From Reyranella sp. (lineage in GTDB: Bacteria; Pseudomonadota; Alphaproteobacteria; Reyranellales; Reyranellaceae), in assembly GCA_019750135.1 (NCBI GenBank), contig JAIEOV010000031.1, forward strand, positions 1 to 64,000: a DNA stretch of 64,000 nt. Direction: 5' to 3'. Positions 9,374 to 62,986 of this stretch are shown here, in pieces. The notes under the pieces are model-generated. The model worked only from the letters and a program-made list of their open reading frames with translations. It did no database searches and was not told the DNA's origin. Every line of letters begins with the position of its first letter. Position 1 is the stretch's first letter. Position numbers and translations under genes: made by a program.

Positions 9374-9613
9374 CGTTCTTCTCCCTTGCATTCACCCGGC
9401 CGTGTTCGACCGTGGCGCGGGCGGGCCTGCTGGCCTGCCTCCCCGTATGTGGGCAGAGTGGCACCCGGCGAGTTGCCAGACAATTCTAATCGGGCCCCCG
9501 GACTCCTTAATCATCGCCCCGTATGACGGGGCTGGGCCATCGCATATGGCCAGCGCTCGGCTTCGGCCGGGATGGCGGGATTTTCGAGCGACGGGGAGGT
9601 GGAAAAGGAGGTG

Positions 9614-17752: not shown

Positions 17753-17886
17753 GCGCGGACCTCCAGGTCCGCTCATGCTGGGGGCGCGCGACTCCAGTCG
17801 CGCGTCTTCGTCGAGGCAAGAGATGATCGCGCCACTGGAGTGGCGCGCCCCCAGCGAAGATCATGAGCGGACCTGGAGGTCCGCGC
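17753..17886. repeat. Nested inverted repeat A-B-B'-A'
   Basis: Outer arms of 25 bp (17753-17777 and 17862-17886, beginning GCGCGGACCTCCAGGTCC) are perfect inverted copies. Each arm itself contains a palindrome. Inside them a second pair (17778-17788 CTGGGGGCGCG and 17843-17853 CGCGCCCCCAG) frames two further small palindromes of the CGCGACTCCAGTCGCG type. The element fills the gap between the convergent thioesterase and deacetylase genes. The same modules recur at 6.4, 23.4 and 33.0 kb. Confidence 0.85.
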
Positions 17887-23357: not shown

Positions 23358-23492
23358 CTTGCCGGACTGCGCGCCTCCAGGCCTGCCTCATGCTCTTCGG
23401 AGCGCGGACCTCCAGGTCCGCTCATGAGCATGATGCGGACCTGGAGGTCCGCGCTCCGCCATGAGCGGGCGGAGGCCCGCGGTCCGACAAGA
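23358..23492. repeat. Nested inverted repeat of the GGACCTCCAGGTCC family
   Basis: Inner arms at 23400-23421 and 23435-23456 (GAGCGCGGACCTCCAGG... and its exact complement) are 22 bp and perfect. Each arm is itself palindromic. Outer arms starting CTTGCCGGAC (23358 on) and ending GGTCCGACAAG (near 23491) are imperfect inverted copies with internal CCTCCAGG-like palindromes. It lies between the PPOX gene's 3' end and the binding-protein promoter region. Confidence 0.8.
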
Positions 23493-32985: not shown

Positions 32986-33124
32986 CTGGGGGCGCGCCAC
33001 TCCAGTGGCGCGTCATGGTCTTCCGGACCGCCGGCCTCTGGCCGGCCTCATGAGCATGAGCCGGCGAGACGCCGGCGGTCCAAAAGAGCATGAAAGACGC
33101 GCCACTGGAGTGGCGCGCCCCCAG
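32986..33124. repeat. Nested inverted repeat filling the gap before an FAD monooxygenase
   Basis: Outer arms at 32986-33014 and 33096-33124 (CTGGGGGCGCGCCACTCCAG... and its exact complement) are 29 bp and perfect. Inner arms GGACCGCCGGC (33025-33035) and GCCGGCGGTCC (33071-33081) are 11 bp and perfect. At the centre are CTCATG and CATGAG. The element begins 6 bp after one stop codon and ends 2 bp before the next ATG, so the downstream gene's ribosome site (GGAG near 33106) lies inside the repeat. Confidence 0.85.
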
Positions 33125-49811: not shown

Positions 49812-51157
49812 CCCGTCCAGGCCCGTCGCGTCGTCGAGAAGGCGAGCAACAGGGAAAAGGCAATGATCCCGGTTGCGACGCAGGCATAGAGCCCCGACAC
49901 GCCCCAGCCGAACTGGTCGAGGGCGAGAAGGCTGCCGCCGCCCGCGATGGTGATGCGCGTGAGGTTGGCGGCGACCGGCCAGTACATCTCGCCCGTGCCC
50001 TGCGAGGCGAAGTAGAGCGCCATGGCGACGCCGAAGAAGCCGTAGGCTGGGCCGACGATGCTGAGATAGTGACCGCCCGAGGCGAGCGCCTTGGGGTCGG
50101 CGGTGAACAGGCCGAGCCAGAGGCCGGGCCAGATCGCCACAACGATGCCGATGGCGGCGGCGATGCCGCCCGCCATGGCCGCGCCCGTCCAGGCGAGCCG
50201 CTGGGCGCGGGCGTACTGGCGGGCGCCGATGTTGGTGCCGACCAGGGCGGTCAGCGTGGCGCCGATGCCGAAGCTGATGGGGATCAGCATGTATTCCAGG
50301 CGGCTGCCGATGCCGTAGCCCGCGATGGCGCCATCGCCTTCGCGCCCGATCAGCCCGGTGACGACCAGCACCGTGCCGTTGGTCAGGATGACGACCAGGC
50401 AGGCGATCAGGCCGACCTTCAGGATGTCGCGGAAGGCCACCCACTTGAAGCCATCGCGAGGCCAGTGCAGGCGCAGCGCGGCCTTAGGCCCCAAAAGCTT
50501 GCTCAGCATCCAGACGGCGGCGAGGGTGAAGGAGATCACGGCGGCCAGGGCTGGCCCGCGGATGCCGAGCGCGGGCAGGCCGAACCAGCCCAAGGTCAGC
50601 GCGCCGGTCAGCGGGATCTGCAGTGCCGCGGTGGCGACCAGGGCATAGCCCGGGGTCTTCATGTCGCCGGTGCCGCGCAGCACCGAGGCCATGGAGTTGG
50701 CGACCCAGTGGGCGGCGCAGCCCAGGAAGAGCACGGTAGCAAAGGCCTCGGCGCGATCGAGGGCGGCACCGCTGCCGCCCAGCGCGCCGTAGATCGTGCG
50801 GCCGAAGCCCACAAACACGACGGCGAACAGCACCGACATGCCGAGCGCGATCACGAGCGCATGGGCGGCGGCGGCTTCGGCGGCAGCGCGGTTGCCGGCG
50901 CCCAGCGCGCGCGCCACCAAGGAGGAGATGCCGCCGCCCATGGCGCCGGCGGACATCATGCCGAGCGTCATCTGGGTCGGGAACACCAGCGCCAGGGCGG
51001 CGAGGTCGACGATGCCGAGCTGGCCCACGAACCAGCCGTCGGAAATGCTGACCAGGCTCTGCATGGCCACGTTCAGCACATTGGGCATGGCAAGGGCGAG
51101 AATGGTGGGCACGATCGGCCCTGCCAGCATCATCTGCCGGCGCTCGGCGGGACTCAT
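49808..51157 (-). CDS. MATE family efflux transporter, copy 2
   Basis: 449 residues, upstream partner of copy 1, with the same N-terminus type (MSPAERRQMMLAGPIVP) and the matching SAGAMGGGISSLVARALG region. The two are clearly tandem duplicates that have diverged, and the 4-nt overlap means they are co-translated. They may act separately or as a pair. An acyl-carrier-like gene lies 95 bp upstream on the same strand. Confidence 0.93.
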   Translation of the reverse strand: MSPAERRQMMLAGPIVPTILALAMPNVLNVAMQSLVSISDGWFVGQLGIVDLAALALVFPTQMTLGMMSAGAMGGGISSLVARALGAGNRAAAEAAAAHALVIALGMSVLFAVVFVGFGRTIYGALGGSGAALDRAEAFATVLFLGCAAHWVANSMASVLRGTGDMKTPGYALVATAALQIPLTGALTLGWFGLPALGIRGPALAAVISFTLAAVWMLSKLLGPKAALRLHWPRDGFKWVAFRDILKVGLIACLVVILTNGTVLVVTGLIGREGDGAIAGYGIGSRLEYMLIPISFGIGATLTALVGTNIGARQYARAQRLAWTGAAMAGGIAAAIGIVVAIWPGLWLGLFTADPKALASGGHYLSIVGPAYGFFGVAMALYFASQGTGEMYWPVAANLTRITIAGGGSLLALDQFGWGVSGLYACVATGIIAFSLLLAFSTTRRAWTG

Positions 51158-51252
51158 GGATTACTCGTGTAGATACACCTACCGAGCAACATGCCCATGC
51201 TCACGCGGTTCTGCGCGCGAGGTTATCTCATGGGCTTATCAGAGGAGGGGCG

Positions 51253-51543
51253 TCAGGCCCGGGCGCACAGCGTCAGGATCGTGTTGGCGAGCTGGTCCAC
51301 GGTGCGGACTTCGGCGATGAGATTGATGGGGAGGGAGACGTCGAACCGGTCCTCGAGCGCCATGATCATGTCCATGAGCGTCAGCGAATCGATGGTCGAG
51401 CCATCGGAAATGACCGTAGCCCCGGTGATCGGTCTGTCGCCGACCTGGTAGGGCAGAAGCTGATGGCGGATCTCGCGCATCACGTCCAGCTGCAGGGACA
51501 CGCGCTCCGCTTTGTCGGCAATCAGGTTGATCGTGCTTTGCAA
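51253..51543 (-). CDS. Acyl-carrier-protein-like protein
   Basis: 96 residues with the phosphopantetheine site DSLTLMDMIMALEDRF (Ser in DSL). The helices fit the four-helix ACP fold. It is not the housekeeping AcpP, whose site usually reads ADSLDxVE. It may serve a specialised lipid or peptide route. The start is TTG at 51543, chosen for GGCGGAGAG 8 nt upstream, and the ATG further in would delete part of helix 1. It lies 95 bp before the MATE pair. Confidence 0.85.
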   Translation of the reverse strand: MQSTINLIADKAERVSLQLDVMREIRHQLLPYQVGDRPITGATVISDGSTIDSLTLMDMIMALEDRFDVSLPINLIAEVRTVDQLANTILTLCARA

Positions 51544-51604
51544 AACGACTCTCCGCCGAATGACGCCGATGGCATCAAACAGGAATCGTCAGTCGCAGGG
51601 AAAT

Positions 51605-51625
51605 AACGTTTGGTTACCAAACGTT
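51605..51625. promoter_or_regulatory. 21-bp near-perfect palindrome upstream of the ACP-like gene
   Basis: AACGTTTGGT-T-ACCAAACGTT has 10-bp perfect arms around one base. It lies 62 bp upstream of the ACP-like start and 9 bp after the trmFO stop. No T-tract follows on the minus strand, so an operator (TetR- or LuxR-like size) is more likely than a terminator. Confidence 0.6.
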
Positions 51626-51633
51626 GCGACGGT

Positions 51634-52992
51634 CTAATCTGCTGCGAGCGGAGTTGGCTTCAGCCAGCGATCGAAATCACGCAGGGCGCGTGCACTAAGC
51701 GCCTGCTTGCGCTCCTTGCCGCGCAGGGTTCCCTCGATCGGCGGGAACAGGCCGAAGTTGACGTTCATCGGCTGGAAGGTCATGGCGTCGGCACCGCCCG
51801 TGATGTGGCCGAGCAGCGCGCCCATCGCCGTCGTTGCAGGCGGTGTGGCAGACGCCTGCCCGAGCCGCTCGGCCGCCGCGAACCGGCCGGTCATCAGTCC
51901 GACCGCCGCGCTTTCGACATAGCCCTCACAGCCCGTGATCTGGCCGGCGAAGCGCAGGCGTGGCATGGCCTTCAGCCGGAGCGTGGCGTCGAGCAGCCGC
52001 GGGCTGTTGAGGAAGGTGTTGCGATGCAGCCCGCCCAGGCGCGCGAACTCGGCGTTCTGCAGGCCGGGGATGGTGCGGAACAGGCGCGTCTGCTCGCCGT
52101 GCTTCAGCTTGGTCTGGAAGCCCACGATGTTCCACAGCGTGCCGAGCGCGTTGTCCTGGCGAAGCTGCACGACGGCCCAGGGGCGATGGCCGGTGCGCGG
52201 GTCGCGCAGGCCGACCGGCTTCATCGGCCCGAAGCGAAGCGTCTGCGGCCCGCTGGCGGCGATCACCTCGATCGGCTGGCAGCCGTTGAAGTAGGGCGTG
52301 TTGTGCTCCCACTCCTTGAATTCGGTCTTGTCGCCGGCGAGCAGGGCCGCGACGAAGGCCTCGTACTCCGGCTTGGTGAGCGGGCAGTTGAGATAGTCGG
52401 CGCCGTCGCCGGCCGGGCCCCCTTTGTCGTAGCGCGACTGCTTCCAGGCGATCGACAGGTCGATGCTCTCGTGGTGCACGATGGGCGCGATGGCGTCGAA
52501 GAAGGCGAGCGCTTCCTCGCCGCTCAGCGTGCGGATCGCCTCGGCCAGCGCCGGCGAGGTGAGGGGGCCGGTGGCCACGATCACGCTATCCCAGTCGGCA
52601 GGCGGCAGGCCCGCCACCTCCTCGCGCCGAAGCTCGACCAGCGGATGGCCGAGCAGGGCGTCCTGCACGGCCGCCGAGAAGCCGTGGCGGTCGACGGCGA
52701 GCGCGCCGCCGGCCGGCAGCTTGTGGGCGTCGGCCGCCCGCATGATCAGCGAGCCGGCGCGCCGCATCTCCTCGTGCAGCAGGCCGACCGCGTTGTTGGC
52801 GGCATCGTCCGAGCGGAAGGAATTGGAGCAGACCAGCTCGGCCAGGCTGTCGGTGAGATGCGCCTCGGTCCCGCGCACCGGCCGCATCTCGTGCAGCACT
52901 ACGGGCACGCCGGCCGACGCGATCTGCCACGCCGCCTCGGAGCCGGCGAGACCGCCCCCTACGATATGTATTGGCTTGGCGCTTGACGTCAT
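51634..52992 (-). CDS. trmFO: TrmFO, methylenetetrahydrofolate-tRNA-(uracil-5-)-methyltransferase
   Basis: Flavoenzyme that makes 5-methyluridine at position 54 of tRNA using methylene-THF and NAD(P)H, 452 residues. FAD site [16 protein letters not shown], catalytic Cys in [10 protein letters not shown] and the second Cys in [14 protein letters not shown] are intact. The start ATG is at 52992. It takes the place of TrmA in bacteria that use this pathway. The gene stands alone. Confidence 0.96.
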
Positions 52993-53065
52993 GCTGTCCG
53001 ACCTGAGAGTTCTGAGGTCCTTCGCTTCGCTCAGGATGACAAGCTAATAGATGGGAGATCGCGCA

Positions 53066-53449
53066 ATGGCCAACAAGTTCCACAACCCCAAGACCGTTGC
53101 CCTCGCCGGCAAGTATAGTCTTGCCGCCGAGGTTCCGGCCGGTGCGCGGGTCGTCTTCGTCGCCGGCCAGGTCGGCCTCGACGGCAGCGGCAAGCTCGCC
53201 GACGGCATCGAGGCACAGTGCGACCAAGTGTGGAAAAATATCGGCGAGGTGCTGAAGGCCGCCGACATGACCTTCAAGGACATCGTGAAGATCAATTCCT
53301 TCCTGACCGACAGCCGCTTCATCATGGCCAACCGCGCCGCGCGCGACAAGGTCATCGGCGAGCCGTATCCGTCTTCGACCCTGCTCATCGTCCAGGGGCT
53401 GGCCGATCCCGCCATGCTGGTCGAGATCGAGGTCATCGCCGCGAAGTAG
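53066..53449 (+). CDS. RidA/YjgF family protein
   Basis: Trimeric enamine/imine deaminase family member, 127 residues. The motif region around VVFVAGQVGLDGSGKLADGIEAQCDQVWKNIGEVLKAA is clear. The usual conserved Arg in the IN/RNxxFTDxR context appears in INSFLTDSRF. The start at 53066 has GGGAGA upstream. A near copy of its last 26 codons follows immediately. Confidence 0.88.
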   Translation: MANKFHNPKTVALAGKYSLAAEVPAGARVVFVAGQVGLDGSGKLADGIEAQCDQVWKNIGEVLKAADMTFKDIVKINSFLTDSRFIMANRAARDKVIGEPYPSSTLLIVQGLADPAMLVEIEVIAAK

Positions 53450-53536
53450 CCGCATCTGTCCTGTACCTTGCTCATTGTCCCGGGGCTGGCCGATCCCGCC
53501 ATGCTGGTCGAGATCGAGCTCATCGCCGCGAAGTGA
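53371..53536. repeat. Tandem duplication of the RidA 3' end
   Basis: Bases 53371-53449 (end of the RidA gene including its stop) recur at 53458-53536 with few changes: GGGGCTGGCCGATCCCGCC is shared, and one stop is TAG and the other TGA. The second copy is untranslated unless read as part of the next gene's leader, and supplies AAGGAG just past its end. It looks like a recent local duplication. Confidence 0.8.
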
Positions 53537-53549
53537 AGGAGCAAGTGCC

Positions 53550-54053
53550 ATGCGTAGGATCGCCTGCAGCCTGATCGCATCCATCGTCGTATCGTCGGGT
53601 GTCGCCTACGCGGCCGATGAGCTGGTGCCGCCACCGAAGGGCTCAGCGCTGTTGCTGGAGGTCGAGGCGGACGGCGTGCAGATCTACGCCTGCGAAGCCA
53701 AGGACCAGGGCTTTGCCTGGGTGTTCAAGGCGCCCGAGGCCAATCTGTTCGACAAGCAGGGTCGCCTGGTCGGCACTCACTTCGCGGGGCCGACCTGGAA
53801 GCTCGCCGACGGCAGCGTGGTCGGCGAGGTCGCCGTGCGCGCCGATGCGCCGTCGAGCGGGGCCATTCCCTGGCTGCTGCTCAAGTCCAAGAGCCACGAG
53901 GGCTCGGGTGTGCCGGCAAACGCCGCCTTCGTTCGCCGCGCCGATACCAGGGGCGGCGGAGCCCCGACCGCGGGCTGCGATGCGGCGCACAAGGGCGAAC
54001 AGGCCCGCATTCGTTATTACGCGCTTTACCAGTTCTTCGGCGCCGCGAAGTGA
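53550..54053 (+). CDS. DUF3455 domain-containing secreted protein
   Basis: 167 residues. The signal peptide MRRIACSLIASIVVSSGVAYA is followed by a DUF3455 domain (LVPPPKGSALLLEVEADGVQIYACEAK and WKLADGSVVGEV). The function is unknown, though members are common in proteobacteria and fungi. The start at 53550 has AAGGAG from the RidA tail copy. It is followed by the nadE promoter. Confidence 0.88.
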   Translation: MRRIACSLIASIVVSSGVAYAADELVPPPKGSALLLEVEADGVQIYACEAKDQGFAWVFKAPEANLFDKQGRLVGTHFAGPTWKLADGSVVGEVAVRADAPSSGAIPWLLLKSKSHEGSGVPANAAFVRRADTRGGGAPTAGCDAAHKGEQARIRYYALYQFFGAAK

Positions 54054-54067
54054 CGGCGGGCGGCGCC

Positions 54068-54098
54068 TTGACATCAATTATGCTCAAAAATAGCATAA
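54068..54098 (+). promoter_or_regulatory. nadE promoter with overlapping inverted repeat
   Basis: TTGACA (54068-54073), a 17-bp spacer and TAGCAT (54091-54096) form a near-consensus sigma-70 promoter. TTATGCT and AGCATAA (54078-54084 and 54092-54098) make a perfect 7-bp inverted repeat with a 7-nt centre that covers the spacer and -10, as an operator would. Transcription should begin close to the ATG at 54103, so the message may be leaderless. Confidence 0.65.
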
Positions 54099-54102
54099 GA
54101 AG

Positions 54103-55758
54103 ATGACGCAGTCGCTCAAGGTCGCCCTCGCCCAGCTCAATCCCACGGTCGGCGACGTCACGGGCAATCTCGCCAAGGTCCGGGCAGCGCGCACAGAAGC
54201 GGCAAGGCAGGGCGCCGACCTGATGCTGACGACCGAACTGGTCCTCGCCGGATACTTCCCCGAGGACCTGGTGTTGAAACCCTCGTTCGTGAAGCGCTGC
54301 CACGACGCGGTCGAGGAACTGCGCGCCGATACGATGGATGGCGGGCCGGCGCTGTTCGTCGCCACGCCGTGGCACGAGGACGGCAAGCTCTACAACGCGA
54401 TCATCTGCCTCGACAAAGGCGAGATCGTCGGCAAGCGCTACAAGGTCGACTTGCCGAACTACGGCGTGTTCGACGACAAGCGCGTCTTCGCCCCCGGCCC
54501 GATGCCGGGGCCGCTGGTGGTCAGGGGCGTCCGCATCGGCGTGCCGATCTGCGAGGACGTCTGGACGCCCGATGTCGTCGAATGCATCTCCGAGACCGGC
54601 GGCGAAATCCTGCTGGTGCCCAACGCCTCGCCCTATGAGGTAGGGAAGACCGACATACGCGTGCAGCTCGCGGTGAAGCGCGTGGTCGAGAGCGGCCTGC
54701 CGCTGGTCTATCTCAACCAGGTCGGCGGCCAGGACGAGGTGGTCTATGACGGCGGCTCGTTCGCCCTGGGCGCCGACCGCTCGCTGAAGGTCAAGCTCGC
54801 CTCGTTCCGCGAGCAGGTCGTGACCATCGAGTTCCGCCGAAATGGCAGCGGTTGGGAATGCCAGCCTGGGCCGATCGCCCCCGAGCTCAGCGATATCGAA
54901 TCGATCTACCAGGCGATGATGCTGGGCCTGCGCGACTACGTGAACAAGACCGGCTTCCCATCGGTCGTGATCGGCCTGTCGGGCGGCGTCGATTCGGCGC
55001 TGACCGCGGCGGTCGCCGCCGACGCGCTGGGCCCCGACCGCGTGCACACGATCATGATGCCGTCGCCCTACACCAGCGCGCATTCGCTGGAAGACGCCAA
55101 GGCCTGCGCCGAGGCGATCGGCGTGCGCTACGACATCGTCGGCATCGAGCCGGCGATGGAGGCTTTCCGCGGCATGACGGTGCCGCTGTTCGGCAACGCC
55201 CCGGAAGATGTCACCGAGGAGAACATCCAGAGCCGCGCCCGCGGCGTCGTGCTGATGGCGGTGTCCAACAAGCTCGGCGGCATGGTGGTGACGACGGGCA
55301 ACAAGTCGGAGATGGCGGTGGGCTATGCCACGCTCTATGGCGACATGTGCGGCGGCTACAACGTGCTGAAGGATGTCTACAAGACCACGGTGTTCGAGCT
55401 CTGCCGCTGGCGGAATGGGCACCTGCCCGAGGGCGCGCTGGGCCGCAAGGGCAGGGTGATCCCCGAGCGCATCATCGACAAGCCGCCGTCGGCCGAGCTG
55501 CGGCCCGACCAGCAGGACTCCGATTCGCTGCCGCCCTATCCGGTGCTGGATGCCATCCTGAAGGGCCTGATCGAGCGCGACCTGTCGGCCGAAGAACTGG
55601 CGGGCGAAGGCCACGATCTCGCCGTCGTGAACAAGGTGTGGCGCCTGCTCGAAGGTGCGGAGTACAAACGACGCCAGGCGCCGCCGGGCGTCAAGATCAC
55701 CTCGCGCATCATCAGCCGTGAGCGGCGCTATCCGATCGTGAATGGGTTCAGGGGTTGA
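54103..55758 (+). CDS. nadE: Glutamine-hydrolysing NAD+ synthase
   Basis: 551 residues. The N-terminal nitrilase-like glutaminase has the triad Glu45 (TTELVLAGY), Lys114 (YKVDLPNYG) and Cys150 (VPICEDVW). The C-terminal synthase has GLSGGVDSALTAAV near residue 290, where NaAD is adenylated and amidated to NAD+. All residues are intact and the length is normal. It has its own promoter and lies 49 bp after the DUF3455 gene. Confidence 0.97.
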   Translation: MTQSLKVALAQLNPTVGDVTGNLAKVRAARTEAARQGADLMLTTELVLAGYFPEDLVLKPSFVKRCHDAVEELRADTMDGGPALFVATPWHEDGKLYNAIICLDKGEIVGKRYKVDLPNYGVFDDKRVFAPGPMPGPLVVRGVRIGVPICEDVWTPDVVECISETGGEILLVPNASPYEVGKTDIRVQLAVKRVVESGLPLVYLNQVGGQDEVVYDGGSFALGADRSLKVKLASFREQVVTIEFRRNGSGWECQPGPIAPELSDIESIYQAMMLGLRDYVNKTGFPSVVIGLSGGVDSALTAAVAADALGPDRVHTIMMPSPYTSAHSLEDAKACAEAIGVRYDIVGIEPAMEAFRGMTVPLFGNAPEDVTEENIQSRARGVVLMAVSNKLGGMVVTTGNKSEMAVGYATLYGDMCGGYNVLKDVYKTTVFELCRWRNGHLPEGALGRKGRVIPERIIDKPPSAELRPDQQDSDSLPPYPVLDAILKGLIERDLSAEELAGEGHDLAVVNKVWRLLEGAEYKRRQAPPGVKITSRIISRERRYPIVNGFRG

Positions 55759-55760
55759 AT

Positions 55761-56056
55761 TCTTCCGGACCGCGCGCATCCTGCGCGCTCATGATCATGT
55801 TCCTCTCCCCGCCAGGGCAGGGCTATCGCATAAGACCGCAAAACCCCGTCATCCCGACCGGAGCCGAGCGTAGCGAGGCGGAGCGGAGGGACCTCTTTTG
55901 TTGATGCGTCGACAAAAAAAGGTCCCTCGACTGCGCCGCCCTTCGGGCGGCTTCGCTCGGGATGACGGGAAAATCAGTCAATGCGATAGCCCTACCCTGG
56001 CGGGGAGAGGAGTATGAAGAAGGTGTGAGCGCGCTGGAAGCGCGCGGTCCGGAAGA
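55761..56056. repeat. Three-layer nested inverted repeat of about 300 bp
   Basis: Layer 1: 55761-55777 (TCTTCCGGACCGCGCGC) pairs perfectly with 56040-56056. Layer 2: 55802-55831 (CCTCTCCCCGCC...) pairs with 55981-56010 with one mismatch in 30. Layer 3: 55845-55857 (CCCGTCATCCCGA) pairs with 55957-55969. Inside is GGGACC (55888-55893) against GGTCCC (55921-55926) with T/A-rich flanks. The whole gap between nadE and the phosphodiesterase is this one structure, and it is the largest of the nested repeats here. Confidence 0.9.
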
Positions 56057-56071
56057 CCATGAGGGCAAGTC

Positions 56072-56875
56072 ATGTTGATCGCGCAAATCTCCGACATGCA
56101 CGTCAAGCCGCCGGGCGAGCTTCTGTACAAGCGCATCGATACGACGGGCTTCCTCGAGCGGGCGGTGGCCCATGTCATGGCGCTCGACCCCAAGCCCGAC
56201 GTCGTCGTCGCCACGGGCGACCTGGTCGACGGCGGCAAGCCCGAGGAATACGCCCTGCTGCGCCGCCTGCTGGCGCCGTTGTCGATGCCGGTCTATCTCA
56301 TCCCCGGCAATCACGATGCGCGCGACGCCATGCGCGAGGCCTTCCCCGATCACGCCTATCTGCCGAAAGACGGCTTCCTGCAGTACACGATCGAGGACCT
56401 GCCGGTGCGGCTGATCGCCCTCGACACGCTGGTCCCTGGCAAGGGCCACGGCGCGCTGTGCGAGGAGAGGCTCGGCTGGCTGGAAGCTCGGCTCGGCGAA
56501 AGCGACCGGCCGACGGTGCTGTTCATGCATCACCCGCCCTTCGACTGCGGCATCGATGCCTTCGACGGCATGAAGGTCAACGAGGGTGCCGACCGGATGG
56601 CCGCGATCGTCCGGCGTCACAGCCATGTCGAGCGCGTGATGTGCGGCCACGTCCATCGGCCGATCCAGGTGCTGTGGGCCGGCACGATGGCCTCGATCGC
56701 GCCCAGCACCGCCCACCAGGCGACGCTCGATCTTCACCGCGGGACGCCGCATTCGTTGATGATGGAACCGCCTGGCCTGTCGCTTCACCTGTGGCGGCCA
56801 GGCATGGGGCTCGTGACCCACGTCAGCTACATTGGAACCTACAAGGGCCCGGAGCCGTTTCGAACGCTGCAATGA
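56072..56875 (+). CDS. Metallophosphoesterase (CpdA-type cyclic-nucleotide phosphodiesterase family)
   Basis: Cytosolic calcineurin-like phosphoesterase, 267 residues. Metal ligands are in QISDMHVKP, ATGDLVDGG, PGNHDARD, FMHHPPFDCG and GHVHRPIQ. Relatives include the cAMP phosphodiesterase CpdA, but substrate specificity varies. The ATG at 56072 has GAGGGCAAG upstream. It overlaps the Nramp-like gene by ATGA. Confidence 0.9.
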   Translation: MLIAQISDMHVKPPGELLYKRIDTTGFLERAVAHVMALDPKPDVVVATGDLVDGGKPEEYALLRRLLAPLSMPVYLIPGNHDARDAMREAFPDHAYLPKDGFLQYTIEDLPVRLIALDTLVPGKGHGALCEERLGWLEARLGESDRPTVLFMHHPPFDCGIDAFDGMKVNEGADRMAAIVRRHSHVERVMCGHVHRPIQVLWAGTMASIAPSTAHQATLDLHRGTPHSLMMEPPGLSLHLWRPGMGLVTHVSYIGTYKGPEPFRTLQ

Positions 56876-58155
56876 CGGTCGCACAATCTCAGCCCGGTTC
56901 GCGGTGGAGCCTTGAAGCTCTTTTGAAGAAGCTGGGGCCGGGAGTGATCACCGGCGCAGCCGACGACGACCCCAGCGGCATCGCCACGTACTCTCAGGCC
57001 GGTGCCCAGGCGGGCCTGGGGCTCCTGTGGACGGTGGTGCTGACCTTCCCCCTCATGGTGGCGGTGCAGTCGATCAGCGCCCGCATCGGCCGCGTCACGG
57101 GGCGCGGTCTTGCCGGCAACATGGTGAAGGTCTTTCCGAAGGGCATCGTCATGGTGCTCGTGCTGCTGCTGTTCGTGGCCAACACCATCAATCTCGGCGC
57201 CGATCTCGCCGCCATGGGGGCGGCAGCGAAGCTGGTGCTGGGCGGCAGTGAACGCCTGTACACGCTGGGCTTCGCCGTCTTCTCCCTGCTGGCGATCGTG
57301 TTCGTGCCCTATCATCGCTATGTGGGGCTGCTGAAGTGGTTCACCTTCTCGCTGCTGGCCTATGTAGGCGTGGTCTTCTTCGTGAAGATCGACTGGGCCG
57401 CGGTCGCGGCCGGCGCCCTCGTCCCGAAGGTGGCGCTGTCCGGCGACGCGCTGACCCTGGTCGTCGCCATATTCGGCACGACCATCAGTCCCTATCTCTT
57501 CTTCTGGCAGAGCTCGCAGGAGGTCGAGGAAGAGGAGGCCGATCCCGAGGCGGGCCCGCTCAAGGAACATCCGGAGCAGGCCAGGCGTGAGCTGAACCGC
57601 ATCAGCTGGGAGACCTGGGTGGGCATGGGAATGTCCAACCTGATCGCCTTCTTCATCATGCTGACCGCGGCAGTGACCTTGAACGCCGCCGGCAAGACCG
57701 ACATACAGACGGCCGAGCAGGCGGCCGAGGCGCTGCGCCCGATCGCGGGCGACGCCGCCTTCTTCCTGTTCAGCCTTGGCCTGATTGGCACCGGGCTTCT
57801 CGCCGTGCCCGTGCTGGCGGGCTCGGTCGCCTACGCCGTGGGCGAAGCGCGCGGCTGGCAGATCGGCCTCGAACGCCCGCTCAACGAAGCGCGCCCGTTC
57901 TACATCGTCATCGCGCTGGCCATCCTGCTCGGTGTCGGGGTGGAGTTCACCCCGCTCGATCCCATCAGGGCACTGTTCTGGAGTGCGGTGGTAAATGGCG
58001 TCATCGTCGTGCCGATCATGGTGGCAATGATGATCATGGCGAGCCGGCGCAAGCTGATGGGCCGCTTCGTCGCCGCGCGCTGGCAGGTGGTGCTCGGCTG
58101 GTCGGCGACGGCCGTCATGACCGCGGCGGCGGTGGCCATGTTGGCGACGATGTGA
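56872..58155 (+). CDS. Nramp-like divalent metal transporter (non-canonical motif)
   Basis: 427 residues, about eleven hydrophobic segments, with the Nramp/LeuT-type fold and a C-terminal half typical of the family. Classical Nramp proteins carry DPGN in helix 1; here the first helix reads GAADDDPSGIAT, and the helix-6 region reads GTTISPYLFFWQS instead of the usual MPHN. It therefore belongs to the related branch whose metal selectivity is less clear, possibly including Mg-type transporters. Translation is coupled to the phosphodiesterase. The long 5' extension in frame is noise. Confidence 0.85.
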   Translation: MTVAQSQPGSRWSLEALLKKLGPGVITGAADDDPSGIATYSQAGAQAGLGLLWTVVLTFPLMVAVQSISARIGRVTGRGLAGNMVKVFPKGIVMVLVLLLFVANTINLGADLAAMGAAAKLVLGGSERLYTLGFAVFSLLAIVFVPYHRYVGLLKWFTFSLLAYVGVVFFVKIDWAAVAAGALVPKVALSGDALTLVVAIFGTTISPYLFFWQSSQEVEEEEADPEAGPLKEHPEQARRELNRISWETWVGMGMSNLIAFFIMLTAAVTLNAAGKTDIQTAEQAAEALRPIAGDAAFFLFSLGLIGTGLLAVPVLAGSVAYAVGEARGWQIGLERPLNEARPFYIVIALAILLGVGVEFTPLDPIRALFWSAVVNGVIVVPIMVAMMIMASRRKLMGRFVAARWQVVLGWSATAVMTAAAVAMLATM

Positions 58156-58168
58156 GAACCAGGCCGTC

Positions 58169-58666
58169 ATGACGGTCTATGAAATCACGCCGATCGCCGA
58201 GAATCATATTCTGGGTTTCCGCGCGACGGTGGATGCGGTGGCTCGGGAGCGCAAATCCCTGTCGTTCCTGGAAGCGCCGCCGCTCGAGCAAATGCGGCCT
58301 TTCGTTCTGAACAACATCAAGGAAGGATCGCCGCAGCTGGTCGTTCTCGCCGAAGACGAGGTAGTCGGCTGGTGCGATGTGCTTCCCATGCCGCGAAGGA
58401 CCGTTTCCGGTCACTGCGCGACTTTGGGCATGGGGCTGTTGCTGGCGTATCGCGGCCAGGGGATCGGTCGAAAGCTCATGCGGTGCACGGTCGATGCGGC
58501 TCTTGCCTTTGGCTTCACCCGCATCGAGCTGACGGTGCGAGAAACCAACATCAACGCGATCGCCCTGTACGAAAGCTTCGGCTTCGAGATGGAAGGCCTG
58601 CACCGGAAGGCGGTTTGCATCGACGGGTGCTATGAGAACACGCTTTCGATGGCGTTGATGTCCTAG
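58169..58666 (+). CDS. GNAT family N-acetyltransferase
   Basis: 165 residues with the acetyl-CoA loop MGLLLAYRGQGIGRKLM (pattern QGIGRKL) and the C-terminal ELTVRETNINAIALYESFGFEMEG. It acetylates an amine on a protein or small molecule; the subgroup resembles RimJ/RimL-like or phosphinothricin-type enzymes. The start at 58169 follows the transporter by 13 bp. Its 3' end overlaps the serine hydrolase by 4 nt. Confidence 0.9.
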   Translation: MTVYEITPIAENHILGFRATVDAVARERKSLSFLEAPPLEQMRPFVLNNIKEGSPQLVVLAEDEVVGWCDVLPMPRRTVSGHCATLGMGLLLAYRGQGIGRKLMRCTVDAALAFGFTRIELTVRETNINAIALYESFGFEMEGLHRKAVCIDGCYENTLSMALMS

Positions 58667-59799
58667 TCCTTCACGGCGGGGAGGACGACGCGATTGAAGA
58701 TGCCGAAGGGGATCGGGCCCTGTAGGCCGTCGCGGTAGTGGCCGGCCGTGATCATGACCACGAGGTCGAGCGCGGGCACGACATAGAGGCGTTGGCCGCC
58801 CAGGCCGACGCCGGCTGCCCAGGTGAGCTCGCGGCCATTGCGGAAAGAGCGACCGAGCCACCATTGATAGCCGTAGAAGAACAGCCCCTCGCCGTTGATG
58901 CGCGGCTTGATCGATTCGGCGGCCCAGCCTGCCGGTATCACCTGCTTGCCGTTCCACTGGCCGTCGGTCAGCAGCAGGCGGCCGAGCTTGGCGGCGTCGC
59001 GCGGCCGCATGCGCAGGCTGCCGAAGGCGCCGAGCCGGCCGCTCACGCCGGCGTCCAGCCATTCGAAGTCGGGTGCGTCGATTGGCAGGAAGAGCTTTTC
59101 GCGCGCATAGTCGCGCAGGCTGCGGCCGGTCGACCGCACCAGCGTCTCGCCCAGGAGCGACGTACCACCAGCGGAGTAGACGTAGACCGTCCCCGGCGGA
59201 TAGGCGACGGGCCGCGAGAGGATGTAGCGGAACGGATCGGCCGCCATGATCATCGCCTCTTCCGTGTTGCGCGGATCTTCCCATGGCAGGTCTTCGTTCC
59301 ATGCTAGTCCCGACGACATGGTGAGCAAGTCGCGAAAGGTGATACGCGCCTTCTCAGGGGTCCTGAGATCAGCGTAGTCTGAGAAGGTATCGAATACCGA
59401 CGAGTCGAGAGCGGGGAACTTGCCTTCGCTCAACGCGATGCCGACCAGTAGAGAGGTGACGCTCTTGGAGATCGAGCGCAGATCATGCTTCGTCTCCGGG
59501 CCGAAGGTGACGCGGCCGAGCTCGTCGCCCCACCTCTCGTCTTCGCCTGCGAAGTAGCGTTCCATGACGAGCTTGCCATTTCGCACCACGACGACCGCAT
59601 GGATGTTCGCCCTGGGCCATTGCCCGATGAAGGCGTCGAGCTGGCAGAGCCTTGTCGAATCGAGACCAACCTCTGCCTGGCTGGCGATGCTCCAACCATC
59701 GTTCAACGCGACGGGCGCGCCGCAGACTTTCGTGTCCTGTGCCGATGCGGGCAGAGAGAGGGCCAGCAGCGCCAGCAACAGCATGAGAGACTTTGTCAT
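58663..59799 (-). CDS. Serine hydrolase, beta-lactamase class C family
   Basis: 378 residues with a signal peptide (MTKSLMLLLALLALSLPASA) and the class C fold. The SxxK motif is SISKS and the second motif YSAGGT replaces the canonical YxN, as in many esterase-like members. Such enzymes act as esterases, D-aminopeptidases or lactamases, and it is probably periplasmic. It converges on the GNAT gene. Confidence 0.9.
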   Translation of the reverse strand: MTKSLMLLLALLALSLPASAQDTKVCGAPVALNDGWSIASQAEVGLDSTRLCQLDAFIGQWPRANIHAVVVVRNGKLVMERYFAGEDERWGDELGRVTFGPETKHDLRSISKSVTSLLVGIALSEGKFPALDSSVFDTFSDYADLRTPEKARITFRDLLTMSSGLAWNEDLPWEDPRNTEEAMIMAADPFRYILSRPVAYPPGTVYVYSAGGTSLLGETLVRSTGRSLRDYAREKLFLPIDAPDFEWLDAGVSGRLGAFGSLRMRPRDAAKLGRLLLTDGQWNGKQVIPAGWAAESIKPRINGEGLFFYGYQWWLGRSFRNGRELTWAAGVGLGGQRLYVVPALDLVVMITAGHYRDGLQGPIPFGIFNRVVLPAVKD

Positions 59800-59855
59800 T
59801 CCGGCCTAGCTTACGTCGTGCACGAAAGCGGGCAAGCACATGCTACCGTTTTCCC

Positions 59856-60533
59856 ATGAAGCTCTATTCCGGACCGCTCAGCATGTTCGGCGCCAAGGCC
59901 GAGATTGCCGCCCATGAGAAGGGGCTCGACTTCGAGCTCATCATGGTGCCCTTCGAGATGAAGACGCTGTATGAGCCCAAGCATCCCGAGGTGCTGCGCG
60001 TCAATCCCAAGCGCCAGGTGCCGGTGCTGATCGATAGTGGCCCCGGGGGCGATCTCGAGATCTTCGATTCGACGCAGATTTTCGAGTACTTCGAATCGAT
60101 CAAGCCCGAGCCGGCGCTGTGGCCGGCCGAGCCCAAGGCCCGCGCGAGAGCGCGGCTGCTCGAGCACAAGTCCGACGAAGTCTACTTTCCGCCGATCATT
60201 CGGTTGATGGGGCTGCAAGGCACTCCCGACGATCCCGTAGCCGTCGAGGCGCGCGCGGCAGCACGCGCCTTCCATGACAGGATGGAGAAGGAGATCGCCA
60301 GCATGGACTGGTTGGCCGGCGGCTACTCGTACGCCGACATTGCGTTCTACATGGCGCAGATCTTCGGGGATCGTATGGGCGCCCCCATGACCGGCGCCCA
60401 TCCGCGACTGCAGGCGTGGCGCGACCGCATGAGCGCTCGGCCCGCCGTCCGCAAGGTTGCCGGTGCCATGGGGCAGTATCTGCTGAGCCAAGGCCGTAAA
60501 CTCCCGGCGTTCCTTGCTGAGCTCACCAGGTAA
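59856..60533 (+). CDS. Glutathione S-transferase family protein
   Basis: 225 residues. The N-terminal thioredoxin-like domain (KLYSGPLSMFGAKAEIAAHEKG, then VLRVNPKRQVPVL and DSTQIFEYFE) is joined to a helical C-terminal domain (SYADIAFYMAQIFG). A Ser in the first loop is the probable thiol-activating residue, as in beta or zeta classes. The start at 59856 begins the GST fold; the earlier in-frame ATG adds 21 unlikely residues. A hydrolase gene follows 10 bp later. Confidence 0.9.
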   Translation: MKLYSGPLSMFGAKAEIAAHEKGLDFELIMVPFEMKTLYEPKHPEVLRVNPKRQVPVLIDSGPGGDLEIFDSTQIFEYFESIKPEPALWPAEPKARARARLLEHKSDEVYFPPIIRLMGLQGTPDDPVAVEARAAARAFHDRMEKEIASMDWLAGGYSYADIAFYMAQIFGDRMGAPMTGAHPRLQAWRDRMSARPAVRKVAGAMGQYLLSQGRKLPAFLAELTR

Positions 60534-60543
60534 GGCTGCCGAC

Positions 60544-61140
60544 ATGGCGAAGATTCTGTTCCTCCCCGGCGCCGGCGCATCGCCTGACTTCTGGAAGCCC
60601 GTCGGGGCGCTGCTGCCGGCCGATTGGCAGAAGGAATATTTCGGTTGGCCCGGTCTCGGCGATGAGCCGCACGACCCTGCCATCAAAGGGATCGACGACC
60701 TGGTGCGCATGGTCGCCGCGAAGATGGACGGTCCGGTCGACCTGGTGGCCCAATCGATGGGCGGCGGCATCGCCGCCCGGCTGGCGATCGAGCGGCCGCA
60801 GAAGGTGCGCCGCCTGGTGCTGTCCGTGACGTCCGCCGGCATCGACATGGCGGGCCTGGGCGCGTCGGACTGGCGCGAGAGTTATCGCAAGTCGTTTCCG
60901 CGTGCGGCATCCTGGATCACCGAAGCGCGGGCGGCGGCCCTGCTGCCGGTCGAACAGATCGCCGCGCCGACGCTGCTGCTGTGGGGTGACGCCGATCCGA
61001 TCAGCCCGGTCGCCGTCGGCCGTCATCTCGAGCAACGCATCTCCGGCGCGCGCTTGCACGTCGTTGCGGGTGGCGATCACGATCTGGCACAGACCCACGC
61101 GACCGAGATCGCGCCACTGATCGCGCACCATCTCGCCTGA
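60544..61140 (+). CDS. Small alpha/beta hydrolase
   Basis: 198 residues, compact. LFLPGAGASPDFW for the oxyanion loop, nucleophile Ser in VAQSMGGG, acid in WGDADPISP and His in GGDHDLAQ are in order. It is shorter than most members, with no lid insert. The start at 60544 (MAKILFLPG) avoids an upstream leader that overlaps the GST stop. Its TGA abuts the stop of the convergent phosphatase gene. Confidence 0.88.
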   Translation: MAKILFLPGAGASPDFWKPVGALLPADWQKEYFGWPGLGDEPHDPAIKGIDDLVRMVAAKMDGPVDLVAQSMGGGIAARLAIERPQKVRRLVLSVTSAGIDMAGLGASDWRESYRKSFPRAASWITEARAAALLPVEQIAAPTLLLWGDADPISPVAVGRHLEQRISGARLHVVAGGDHDLAQTHATEIAPLIAHHLA

Positions 61141-61716
61141 TCAGGCGGTTGGTTGGCGTCCCTGCACGGTGAGCTTGCCTCCGGCGTCGCGGCGCACCAC
61201 GACAATCTCACCGTCGTCGGTTGGCCCCTGGGCTATGGTCGAGATCACCAGCTGGTGCGTCAGTAGCAGCGTCGGTTGCGCAAGCTCGAGTCCGGCGATC
61301 CAGGCCCGCAGGTCGGCGATCTGCTTCAGCGTGCGATCTGGATCGCGGCCGAAGTAGTTGAGCAATGGTTGCTGGGTGACATCGCCCAGCTTCATGAGCG
61401 TCGCGGTATCGAGACAGCGGCACCATTGGCTGGAATAGATACGTGCCGCCGTGAAGCCGTTGGCGCGGAAAAGATCGCCCATCCGGATCGCCTGCGCGCG
61501 GCCCCCGTCCGATAGATTGCGTTGGGTCGAGCAGTCGTCGAGCCTGAAGCCCGGCGGGTCCAGCGTGCCGGGGGCGGTGGCGTGGCGGATCAACGCGAAA
61601 TGGCCAGGGTCGCTCAAGGCCGACCACAGGTCGGACGAGCGCGCGGGGATGAAAGCGAGCGGTATCCCGAGGAGGGCGCCGAGCGAGCGGCGCGTCAGCG
61701 GGATGCCCTTGCTCAT
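61141..61716 (-). CDS. Histidine phosphatase family protein, exported
   Basis: 191 residues. The leader (LTRRSLGALLGIPLAFIPARS) has a twin arginine, so Tat export is likely. The catalytic RHAT stands at ALIRHATAPG, the second arginine in SSQWCRCLDTA and the second His in LLLTHQLVIS. All four phosphatase residues seem present, so it is probably active. The start is at 61716 and the gene follows the 420-residue protein with 7 bp between. Confidence 0.87.
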   Translation of the reverse strand: MSKGIPLTRRSLGALLGIPLAFIPARSSDLWSALSDPGHFALIRHATAPGTLDPPGFRLDDCSTQRNLSDGGRAQAIRMGDLFRANGFTAARIYSSQWCRCLDTATLMKLGDVTQQPLLNYFGRDPDRTLKQIADLRAWIAGLELAQPTLLLTHQLVISTIAQGPTDDGEIVVVRRDAGGKLTVQGRQPTA

Positions 61717-61723
61717 GGCCGCG

Positions 61724-62986
61724 TCACGTCCGCCCGCAGGCGTCGGGCACCGGCGGCTCGCCGGTCAGGATCTGGGCGATGGTCTCACAGTATTCCGAGC
61801 CATCGTCGACGGTCTTGAAGCCCTCCAGCAGCCGTTCGCGGATCTTCTCCGGAGGAGGGCACCCGTTGGGGAGGGAGATGTCGTCGCTCAGCCAGAAACG
61901 CTTGGCCTTGTCCCAGAAGCCGATGCGGTCGAGGAAGCGGACGCCGTAGTAGTAGCCGTCGATCGTCTTTTCCTTGCCGAAGTGATCATCCCGCAGCGAT
62001 CGGGTGAGGCACCAGTCGAGCAGGGCCTGTATTTCGTGCCGAACAACCTCGCGCTGCTTCCATGACGCGGCCCTCCAGCCGCAATCGAACAGGGTGACGA
62101 CGTCATAGTTGTTGTGGTCCGAGAAGCTGCCGTCCTTCTCGAGCCAGCCGTTCGGATAGATCTCGTGTTTCATGGCGAGCGTGGTCGCCACCATCTTGTC
62201 GAGGTTGGGTGCAACCCGGGTCGTGTTGTCCATGTAGTAGTGGACGACATGGAAGGTGAATGAGAGGTCCGGCACGGTCGCGATGCCGTCATCGAACTTG
62301 TAGGACGGGCCCCAGTAGCCGGTCTGCTTCTGCTGGAGGCCCCAGAGGTAGTCGATGAACGTCTCCTCGAGCTCCTGCGAGACCGTGAACTTCAGCTGTG
62401 GCCGGCAGACCAGCAGCTTGCGCAGTCCGTCCTTGAAGATGAGCTGGCCGAGTGCCGTCAACAGGGCGTTCTGCTCGTCGCGCAGGTTGCGTCCGGTGGC
62501 GACGATGTCGCTGACGCTGAGGGCCCGGAGCAGCCCGACGACGTTCGCCGGCTTCTGCAGGAAGCTCATGAAGGCCAGGGGCTCCAGGTGATCGGTTGCC
62601 GCTTCCCTTTCCTGCAGGGCATCGATGGTCGGCTCGAGCTTGCGATACCATTCGTGGCAGCAGGGTCCCCAGGAGCCGTCGTCGCCCTGCTTGATGCGCG
62701 GTTGGTCGACGTCCTGCAGGCTCTTTTCGCACTCGTCCAGCGCCGCGGACGCGCGAGCCCAATCGTCGGTGTAGTTGATCAGCCACTTGGCTTCGTAGAA
62801 GTGCTGGAGGGCGCATTCCATCGGATGGCCCTTCTTCAGCAGTTCGGCGAGGATGTCGTTGAGGTTCTTTCGCCGGGCGTTCAGCGGCATCCAACGCGCG
62901 TCGTAGTAGGGATCCCTCTGCCGGAACGCCTGCGCGATCCGCTCGAGGACCGAACCGCGCGAGCGTTCGAGGGCGACCTCGATCAC
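61724..62986 (-). CDS. Protein of unknown function with alpha-alpha toroid-like features
   Basis: 420 residues, unrecognised. It is rich in Trp, Tyr, Asp and His, with GYWGPSYKFDDGIATVPDLS and GSFSDHNNYDVVTLFDCGWR, and a helical pattern that reminds me of terpene-cyclase or glycosidase toroids. That comparison is only by eye. No signal peptide is seen. The start is GTG at 62986, overlapping the dehydrogenase stop by GTGA, so the two are translated together. The histidine phosphatase follows in the same direction. Confidence 0.75.
   Translation of the reverse strand: MIEVALERSRGSVLERIAQAFRQRDPYYDARWMPLNARRKNLNDILAELLKKGHPMECALQHFYEAKWLINYTDDWARASAALDECEKSLQDVDQPRIKQGDDGSWGPCCHEWYRKLEPTIDALQEREAATDHLEPLAFMSFLQKPANVVGLLRALSVSDIVATGRNLRDEQNALLTALGQLIFKDGLRKLLVCRPQLKFTVSQELEETFIDYLWGLQQKQTGYWGPSYKFDDGIATVPDLSFTFHVVHYYMDNTTRVAPNLDKMVATTLAMKHEIYPNGWLEKDGSFSDHNNYDVVTLFDCGWRAASWKQREVVRHEIQALLDWCLTRSLRDDHFGKEKTIDGYYYGVRFLDRIGFWDKAKRFWLSDDISLPNGCPPPEKIRERLLEGFKTVDDGSEYCETIAQILTGEPPVPDACGRT

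Follow-up and report, generated by a model that had tools for sequence, protein, structure and literature searches.

A 296-bp palindrome between two genes of Reyranella: a probable stack of small mobile palindromic repeats nested in one another

Among described systems, the REPINs and their RAYT (TnpA-REP) genes come closest to the locus reported here, sharing with it paired inverted REP hairpins around a short loop, dispersed copies, and REPs that flank RAYT genes (Bertels and Rainey 2011, PMC3116915; Nunvar et al. 2010, PMC2817692). As far as the available parts of those papers go, the published REP heads read GT(A/G)G, whereas those found here are GGACC, GGAGC and GGGGG; in addition, REPINs lie here inside REPINs, together with layers of other families. 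The text of PMC3116915 does not contain the words 'nested', 'inserted' or 'loop', and in the portion available the insertion of DNA into REPINs is considered as an origin of singlets. The accessible part of PMC2817692 describes the IS200/IS605-type reaction as producing no larger target duplications. CGTC-tagged REPs (Di Nocera et al. 2013, PMC3733652) resemble the innermost layer of our locus, which has CGTC at its outer ends with an adjacent AT, but the arms of that layer are longer and carry extra hairpins. In the available sections of that paper, REPs are reported inside palindromes in A. variabilis, T. roseum and H. neapolitanus, free target palindromes being absent from A. variabilis and H. 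neapolitanus and numbering hundreds in T. roseum; the CGTC repeats are described as having no dedicated known transposase; and both the target choice of REPs and REPINs and the question of whether RAYTs move them are treated as open. Those sections describe one host-palindrome layer, whereas here the host palindromes form dispersed families of their own, relatives have empty versions of some sites, and up to four layers are present. The same sections describe TIRtrons (TIRYT), which like our elements have Y1 transposase genes bordered by non-GTAG inverted repeats, in some genomes dispersed as dimers; their published TIR motif, GGGGWSAS, differs from the heads of our A1 and A2 subfamilies, and our A units are short self-complementary hairpins. 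PMC6006769, in the part available, groups TnpA-REP proteins and mentions TIRYT. Finally, REPs serve as landing sites for mobile DNA in the REP-targeting IS elements (Tobes and Pareja 2006, PMC1525189, available in part), although the inserted DNA in our case consists of small non-coding palindromes and not of gene-bearing IS. In the open-access literature searched, we found no account of multi-layer nesting of palindromic elements and, judged by title and abstract start, no related work on Reyranella palindromic repeats. While REPINs, CGTC repeats and the use of REPs as insertion targets have all been described before, multi-layer nesting traced by empty sites appears to be new.

The window, by which we mean the whole 64,000-nt stretch analysed, is contig C129 of its own assembly (G000; 8.46 Mb in 160 contigs). 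An inverted-repeat stack at 55761-56056 (296 bp) lies within a 313-nt spacer, with two co-directional genes on either side. We take the 551-aa upstream protein, from its sequence, to be of the NAD+ synthase type, and the 267-aa downstream protein is presumably metallophosphoesterase-like. Several Reyranella MAGs are among the closest records to the upstream protein when it is compared with named genomes (best 80 matches). An earlier note had described the region as a nested, in-register inverted repeat of almost 300 bp, and an inverted-repeat search bore this out with three arm pairs, all in register: outer arms at 55761-55791 and 56026-56056 (31 nt, 94% identity), middle arms at 55795-55831 and 55981-56017 (37 nt, 92%), and inner arms at 55845-55899 and 55915-55969 (55 nt, 80%, with a 15-nt loop). 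The exact 17-bp outer arms and the 30-bp middle arms with one mismatch, as noted earlier, are contained in these longer arms, and the GGGACC/GGTCCC core was found; the inner repeat exists as well, but is much longer than the 13 bp first assigned to it. While the nesting stands, three layers proved too few: the middle pair consists of half-hairpins (B) outside and separate arms (C) inside, and the stack has at least four in-register layers, in the order A>B>C>D from the outside in. Its features, with the two flanking genes, are as follows.

54103-55758, plus strand: upstream gene (551 aa), an anchor for locus comparison
55761-55788, plus strand: left REP of layer A, TCTTCC plus the hairpin unit GGACCGCGCGC-ATCCT-GCGCGC of the outer REPIN; the same unit type flanks RAYT genes
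55789-55799, plus strand: left part of the REPIN loop, TCATGATCATG; B starts immediately 3'
55800-55817, plus strand: left half-hairpin of layer B, TTCCTCTCCCCGCCAGGG, a CCTCTCC hairpin repeat; B without C/D is known in relatives
55818-55846, plus strand: left arm of layer C, CAGGGCTATCGCATAAGACC, plus an A-rich stretch; genome pattern matches with a reversed-pattern control
55847-55967, no strand: layer D, a palindrome with CGTC at both outer ends, CGTCATCCCGA...GGGACC-loop-GGTCCC...TCGGGATGACG; D-only matches at many places
55978-55994, minus strand: right arm of layer C (ATGCGATAGCCCTA), from the repeat-unit pattern search
55995-56011, minus strand: right half-hairpin of layer B (CCCTGGCGGGGAGAGGA), from the inverted-repeat and pattern searches
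56012-56028, plus strand: spacer GTATGAAGAAGGTGTGA, compared below with that of a relative
56029-56056, minus strand: right REP of layer A (GCGCGC-TGGAA-GCGCGCGGTCC plus GGAAGA), from the inverted-repeat and pattern searches
56072-56875, plus strand: downstream gene (267 aa), an anchor for locus comparison

RNA folding predicted a single continuous hairpin for one strand of 55745-56071 (-226.4 kcal/mol, versus -130.1 +/- 5.9 for 100 shuffles; z -16.3) and likewise for the opposite strand (-229.0 versus -124.1 +/- 5.2 for shuffles; z -20.1), in agreement with the earlier suggestion that a transcript could form one long hairpin. The energies fall far below those of the shuffles on both strands, and the hairpin structure at 55761-56056 is therefore far beyond chance. 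No promoter-like sites were found in 55650-56150, and the sole terminator-like site there (55669-55686) lies outside the repeat stack.

Every layer has copies elsewhere in its own genome. The A-type hairpin gave 78 genome matches with at most two mismatches, versus 1 for the reversed pattern, and the GGACC-type pattern gave 81; simple REPINs, such as GGACCGCGCGCATCCTGCGCGCTCATGAGCATGAGCGCGCAGGATGCGCGCGGTCC, are also present, with loops such as TCATGATCATGA. A 421-bp query across the stack had at least 85 matches (40 of 305 candidates were scored), and the kinds among the listed matches were B+C+D, C+D and D alone, many being D only or C+D only. The layers are thus not confined to this site, as a separate search for each had been proposed to establish, and free copies exist of A and D and, in relatives, of B; C was never found free of a D-type palindrome. 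The C sequence, CAGGGCTATCGC (also written CAGGGCTATCGCAT and its inverse), had 30 arm matches (15 + 15) with at most two mismatches, versus 0 in the reversed-pattern control, and 27 of the 30 lie near D or D-like palindromes: 23 at listed D loci, two on C63 around a divergent palindrome, one at C140, and one degenerate at 9533 of the window. The other three, all two-mismatch matches, have no repeat surrounding them. With C arms confined to the surroundings of D or D-like palindromes, C may represent the end of D and not a layer in its own right, and the independence of the middle layer from the inner one is only partial. A sister version of the stack is found on C63 (L332, 3300-3900), where C arms enclose a D-like palindrome of divergent sequence (CGTCGTCTCGACCGGAG..GAGAGACC) and are themselves bordered by remnants resembling B. 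At 9500-9600 of the window, a degenerate remnant with one C arm (TGGGCCATCGCATATGGCC), whose right end resembles D, adjoins a small CCCCGTATGACGGGG hairpin. The left outer end of D is CGTCATCCC, with its complement at the right, so that a terminal CGTC is followed by AT in the stem. Reading of the sequence revealed small extra hairpins inside the D arms (GCCGAGCGTAGCGAGGC and GCCGCCCTTCGGGCGGC); each arm is about 50 nt long with an internal hairpin and does not have the 8-9 bp stem, 4-5 nt loop and CCA tail of CGTC-tagged REPs. D is CGTC-like only.

Comparison of the same spacer between species revealed subsets of these layers. The downstream protein had a match in 46 of 61 genomes, and the spacer was examined in loci L061-L086; the gene start was located in 17 of these 26 loci, the other nine lying outside the comparison, and the same upstream gene is present in 12 of the 17, the upstream sequence being different in the remaining five, G012 included. 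The spacer measures 313 nt in the own genome (A>B>C>D), 194 nt in G014 (A with a B doublet), 87 nt in G033 (A alone), and 33 nt in G004, where only CTTCTTACGGTACGGAAGACC, a 21-nt remnant of A's ends, is left; it is 3-8 nt in G007, G009, G006, G002, G003 and G016 and 25 nt in G036 and G022, with no layers in these eight. The earlier note had proposed that palindromes were inserted successively into one another, and this reading is well supported, neither of the two results that the note named as refuting having turned up: the layers recur elsewhere, and the gaps of the relatives compared do not contain random sequence. At this site itself the nesting holds, although its order is only probable and B, C and D may or may not have arrived separately. 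The start point of B, directly 3' of TCATG, is identical in G014 and the own genome, and the right-hand spacers beside B are equal in length, so that B within A may represent one shared event, the homology of those spacers extending to only 11 of 17 positions. The comparison is unrooted, and A alone in G033 may reflect loss there and not gain in the own genome. In other Reyranella records (L096 and L098), a different, simpler inverted pair (GGGATGAC..GTCATCCCGAGCGTAGCGAGGGAT) is found at the 3' end of the same upstream gene, which suggests independent insertions at this spot. The GGACC-type pattern was found in 26 of the 61 genomes, all within the genus (26 of 37, versus 0 of 24 outside it). 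Positive genomes contain from 1 to 554 matches, a more than 200-fold spread, and 11 of the 37 have none; G004, with only the remnant at this spacer, has 2.

Three further nested stacks of the window were compared in six relatives. At 32990-33120, the own genome has A3>A1, G033 has the same A3 around a different A1, and G012 has A1>A1; other repeats are present in G014 and G006, and no inverted pair in G004 and G009. At 23360-23490, A1>A2 in the own genome corresponds to A1>A1 in G033; G004 lacks the stack, G014 may retain a remnant, and G006 has repeats of other kinds. At 17753-17886, the own genome has an A2 REPIN with A3 inside it, which G014 lacks; the place is taken by other repeats in G033 and G006 and by C/D-type elements in G004. 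For the latter two stacks, G012 and G009 had only one flank per locus. Empty and filled sites were also found for C+D at two sites on other contigs. The G033 orthologue of C158:127033 is a B doublet alone, CCTCTCCCCCAAGGGGGAGAGG, where the own genome has CCTCTCCCCCCAAGGGG-[C+D]-CCCCAAGGGGGAGAGG, that is, C+D inside B; G012 and G004 have no repeat there, and G014 has an unrelated 600 bp. The filled version differs from the empty one by a duplication, CCCCAAGGGG, which is palindromic and at most 10 bp long; the palindromic target leaves the exact length of the duplication ambiguous. This target duplication argues against movement of C+D by an IS200/IS605-type reaction, as far as sequence comparison can indicate. 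At C155:27606, C+D lies in a complete B doublet in the own genome and B is alone in G014, while G004 has no B and G033 and G012 had one flank only. Beyond the spacer described above, B without C/D is thus seen twice, once in G033 and once in G014. On C148 (L024, 1400-2000), another A>B>C>D stack contains a complete B doublet and was therefore assembled separately; it has further hairpins inserted in D's right arm and in the right REP.

To quantify nesting, we used a structural parser whose head and tail motifs were set after viewing the data, with reversed sequence as the main check. It identified 32 REPINs (88 units) in 1.264 Mb of the own genome, versus 0 pairs (13 units) in the reversed sequence. 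Fuzzy regular expressions for counting repeat units were rejected, the A1 pattern giving 152 matches in reversed sequence against 44 real ones. Loop lengths of the 32 REPINs were bimodal: 21 were at most 30 nt (7-28), none fell between 31 and 60 nt, and 11 exceeded 60 nt. Another inverted repeat lies in every one of the 11 long loops; six of these repeats are REPINs found by the parser and five were seen by reading, whereas 0.07-0.35 nestings would be expected by chance (random insertion into 2-10% of the sequence). Composite copies could inflate the count of 11, as two A3>A2 stacks have a common left junction, but the variety of orders seen (A3>A2, A2>A3, A3>A1, A2>A1, A1>A2, the last of these by reading, and A1>A3b) speaks against this. 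The parser undercounts, since the nestings at C158:52642 and at window position 23360 are outside its six nested pairs. An A-type hairpin core is present in the loop of 8 of 26 outermost REPINs (about 361 bp of loop) and within 100 bp outside 4 of 26 (5200 bp), one of these four being itself nested, which corresponds to a roughly 29-fold higher density of A-type cores in loops than in flanks. In 800 kb of G014 and G033 the parser found 21 REPINs with no strict REPIN-in-REPIN, one 48-nt loop with a single A2-like unit, and four loops longer than 60 nt. Three of these four hold another palindrome by eye (A3>A2, A1>A3b and A3>B, with B directly after TCATG), and the fourth looks like mispairing. 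The relatives thus replicate the nesting only weakly in the automatic count. Where inner elements are concerned, the motif TCATG is present at 11 of the 12 flanks, compared with 14 of the 52 remaining flanks and a background of 2.9%, element ends being imprecise, and the enrichment beside inner elements is partly trivial because the loop itself contains TCATG. Hairpins precede TCATG in 88 cases, versus 4 in two reversed controls. A fixed TCATG target rule was considered and is not claimed: the motif is enriched beside other REPINs too, and several of those lie inside or adjoin larger ones.

We consider it likely that small mobile palindromic repeats have been stacked to form the 296-bp palindrome, and that in this lineage the loop or centre of an existing element is a preferred landing place for the next, with hairpins growing from the inside. 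The outermost A would be a REPIN of the family that flanks RAYT-type (HUH/Y1) genes, and presumably moves with them. B would have entered the TCATG-containing loop of A, and C+D, which sits at the centre of B, would either have entered a resident B or arrived with its own B ends as a unit of about 225 bp. Two features may make the loop a favored target: during extrusion of the hairpin on the lagging-strand template it would be the part that stays unpaired, and it contains TCATG, the motif found next to nearly all inserted REPINs. Nested stacks constitute a record of relative insertion order, and the empty loops of sister species are candidate target sites that make the targeting rule directly testable. 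Such stacks are relevant, too, to replication stalling and to the question of how 300 bp of hairpin can be added to a tightly packed gene pair.

The second of the two routes for C+D leads to a simpler history, in which B-C-D, as one MITE-like unit, entered the loop of A in a single jump and only one nesting event took place. We regard this as possible, if rather doubtful. The unit, about 225 bp long, is present at several other loci, its order of half-B, C, D, C, half-B recurring at L002, L004 and L006 with a similar arrangement at L003, and the confinement of C to the surroundings of D or D-like palindromes also fits a composite. However, G014 holds B without C/D in the same loop and with the same start point, C+D lies within complete B doublets at C158 and C155 where G033 and G014, respectively, have B alone, and the stack on C148, with its complete B doublet, has another topology. 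It is also conceivable, but in our judgment unlikely, that elements insert anywhere and survive only in repeat-filled spacers, with no targeting needed. The sites compared lie between conserved flanks, the window site lies between genes, and REPINs as a class are extragenic; against this, A-type cores are far denser in loops (8 per 361 bp) than in flanks (4 per 5200 bp), and although insertions that split an arm went uncounted, the comparison of loop with flank is unaffected by them.

More improbable still is that the hairpin is retained for a function of its RNA or DNA structure, such as the stabilization of mRNA between the two genes. Its strong fold on both strands and the co-directional neighbors would suit such a role, as would the known action of REPs on mRNA, but the site is not conserved, being a remnant in G004 and absent in G007, G009, G002 and others; moreover, Rfam gave no match at gathering thresholds across 50000-62000, and the only terminator-like site is outside the element. 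We give hardly any credence to a fold-back duplication or template switch that made the long inverted repeat once, without insertion: it would account for the symmetric arms, but each layer comes from a dispersed family, arm identity varies by layer (94, 92 and 80%), and the layer subsets in relatives at the same site contradict it.

Returning to the stack of mobile repeats, the enzyme that would move its outermost layer is suggested by the genes that A-type REPs accompany. Layer A has the characteristics of a REPIN, namely two inverted REP units, a short loop, many dispersed copies, and a REP type that also flanks RAYT genes. All five Y1_Tnp matches in the own genome adjoin an A-type REP. At L091, L092 and L093 the gene lies between complete inverted A-type REPs; L095 has a complete left copy and a partial right copy, which adjoins an IS110-like ORF; and L094 has an A-type REP at the right only, its other side lying beyond the contig end. 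The GGACC subfamily (A1), to which layer A of the window belongs, is found at three of the five genes (L091, L092 and L094), and the A3 and A3b subfamilies at L093 and L095. Scores against NF047646, the NCBIfam model of REP-associated tyrosine transposases, were 93.1, 91.1, 84.1 and 77.9, so that three of four pass the cut-off of 80 (L094 was outside this sample), and HVH and one tyrosine are invariant in the alignment of the four transposases. None of the A-type heads (GGACC, GGAGC and GGGGG) is of the classical GT(A/G)G form. Given the REPs beside all five genes and the scores with the RAYT model, layer A is grouped on sequence grounds with the RAYT elements despite its heads. A RAYT would then move layer A, mobility being read from presence and absence between species. 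The RAYT link covers A-type REPs only, and B and C+D would need other or shared enzymes. As a more tentative extension, which is quite conceivable, RAYTs might insert REPINs specifically into exposed REPIN loops via their own TCATG target, giving rise to self-propagating nested hairpins that unrelated palindromic families exploit; each insertion would then create the next landing pad, leading to ever longer nested hairpins. At L095 (1830-3110), the ORF beside the RAYT gene (MKHYAGIDVS...), which we take to be IS110-like, lies inside the right REP with GCGCCACGGAGATGG on both sides, and looks like a REP-targeting IS.
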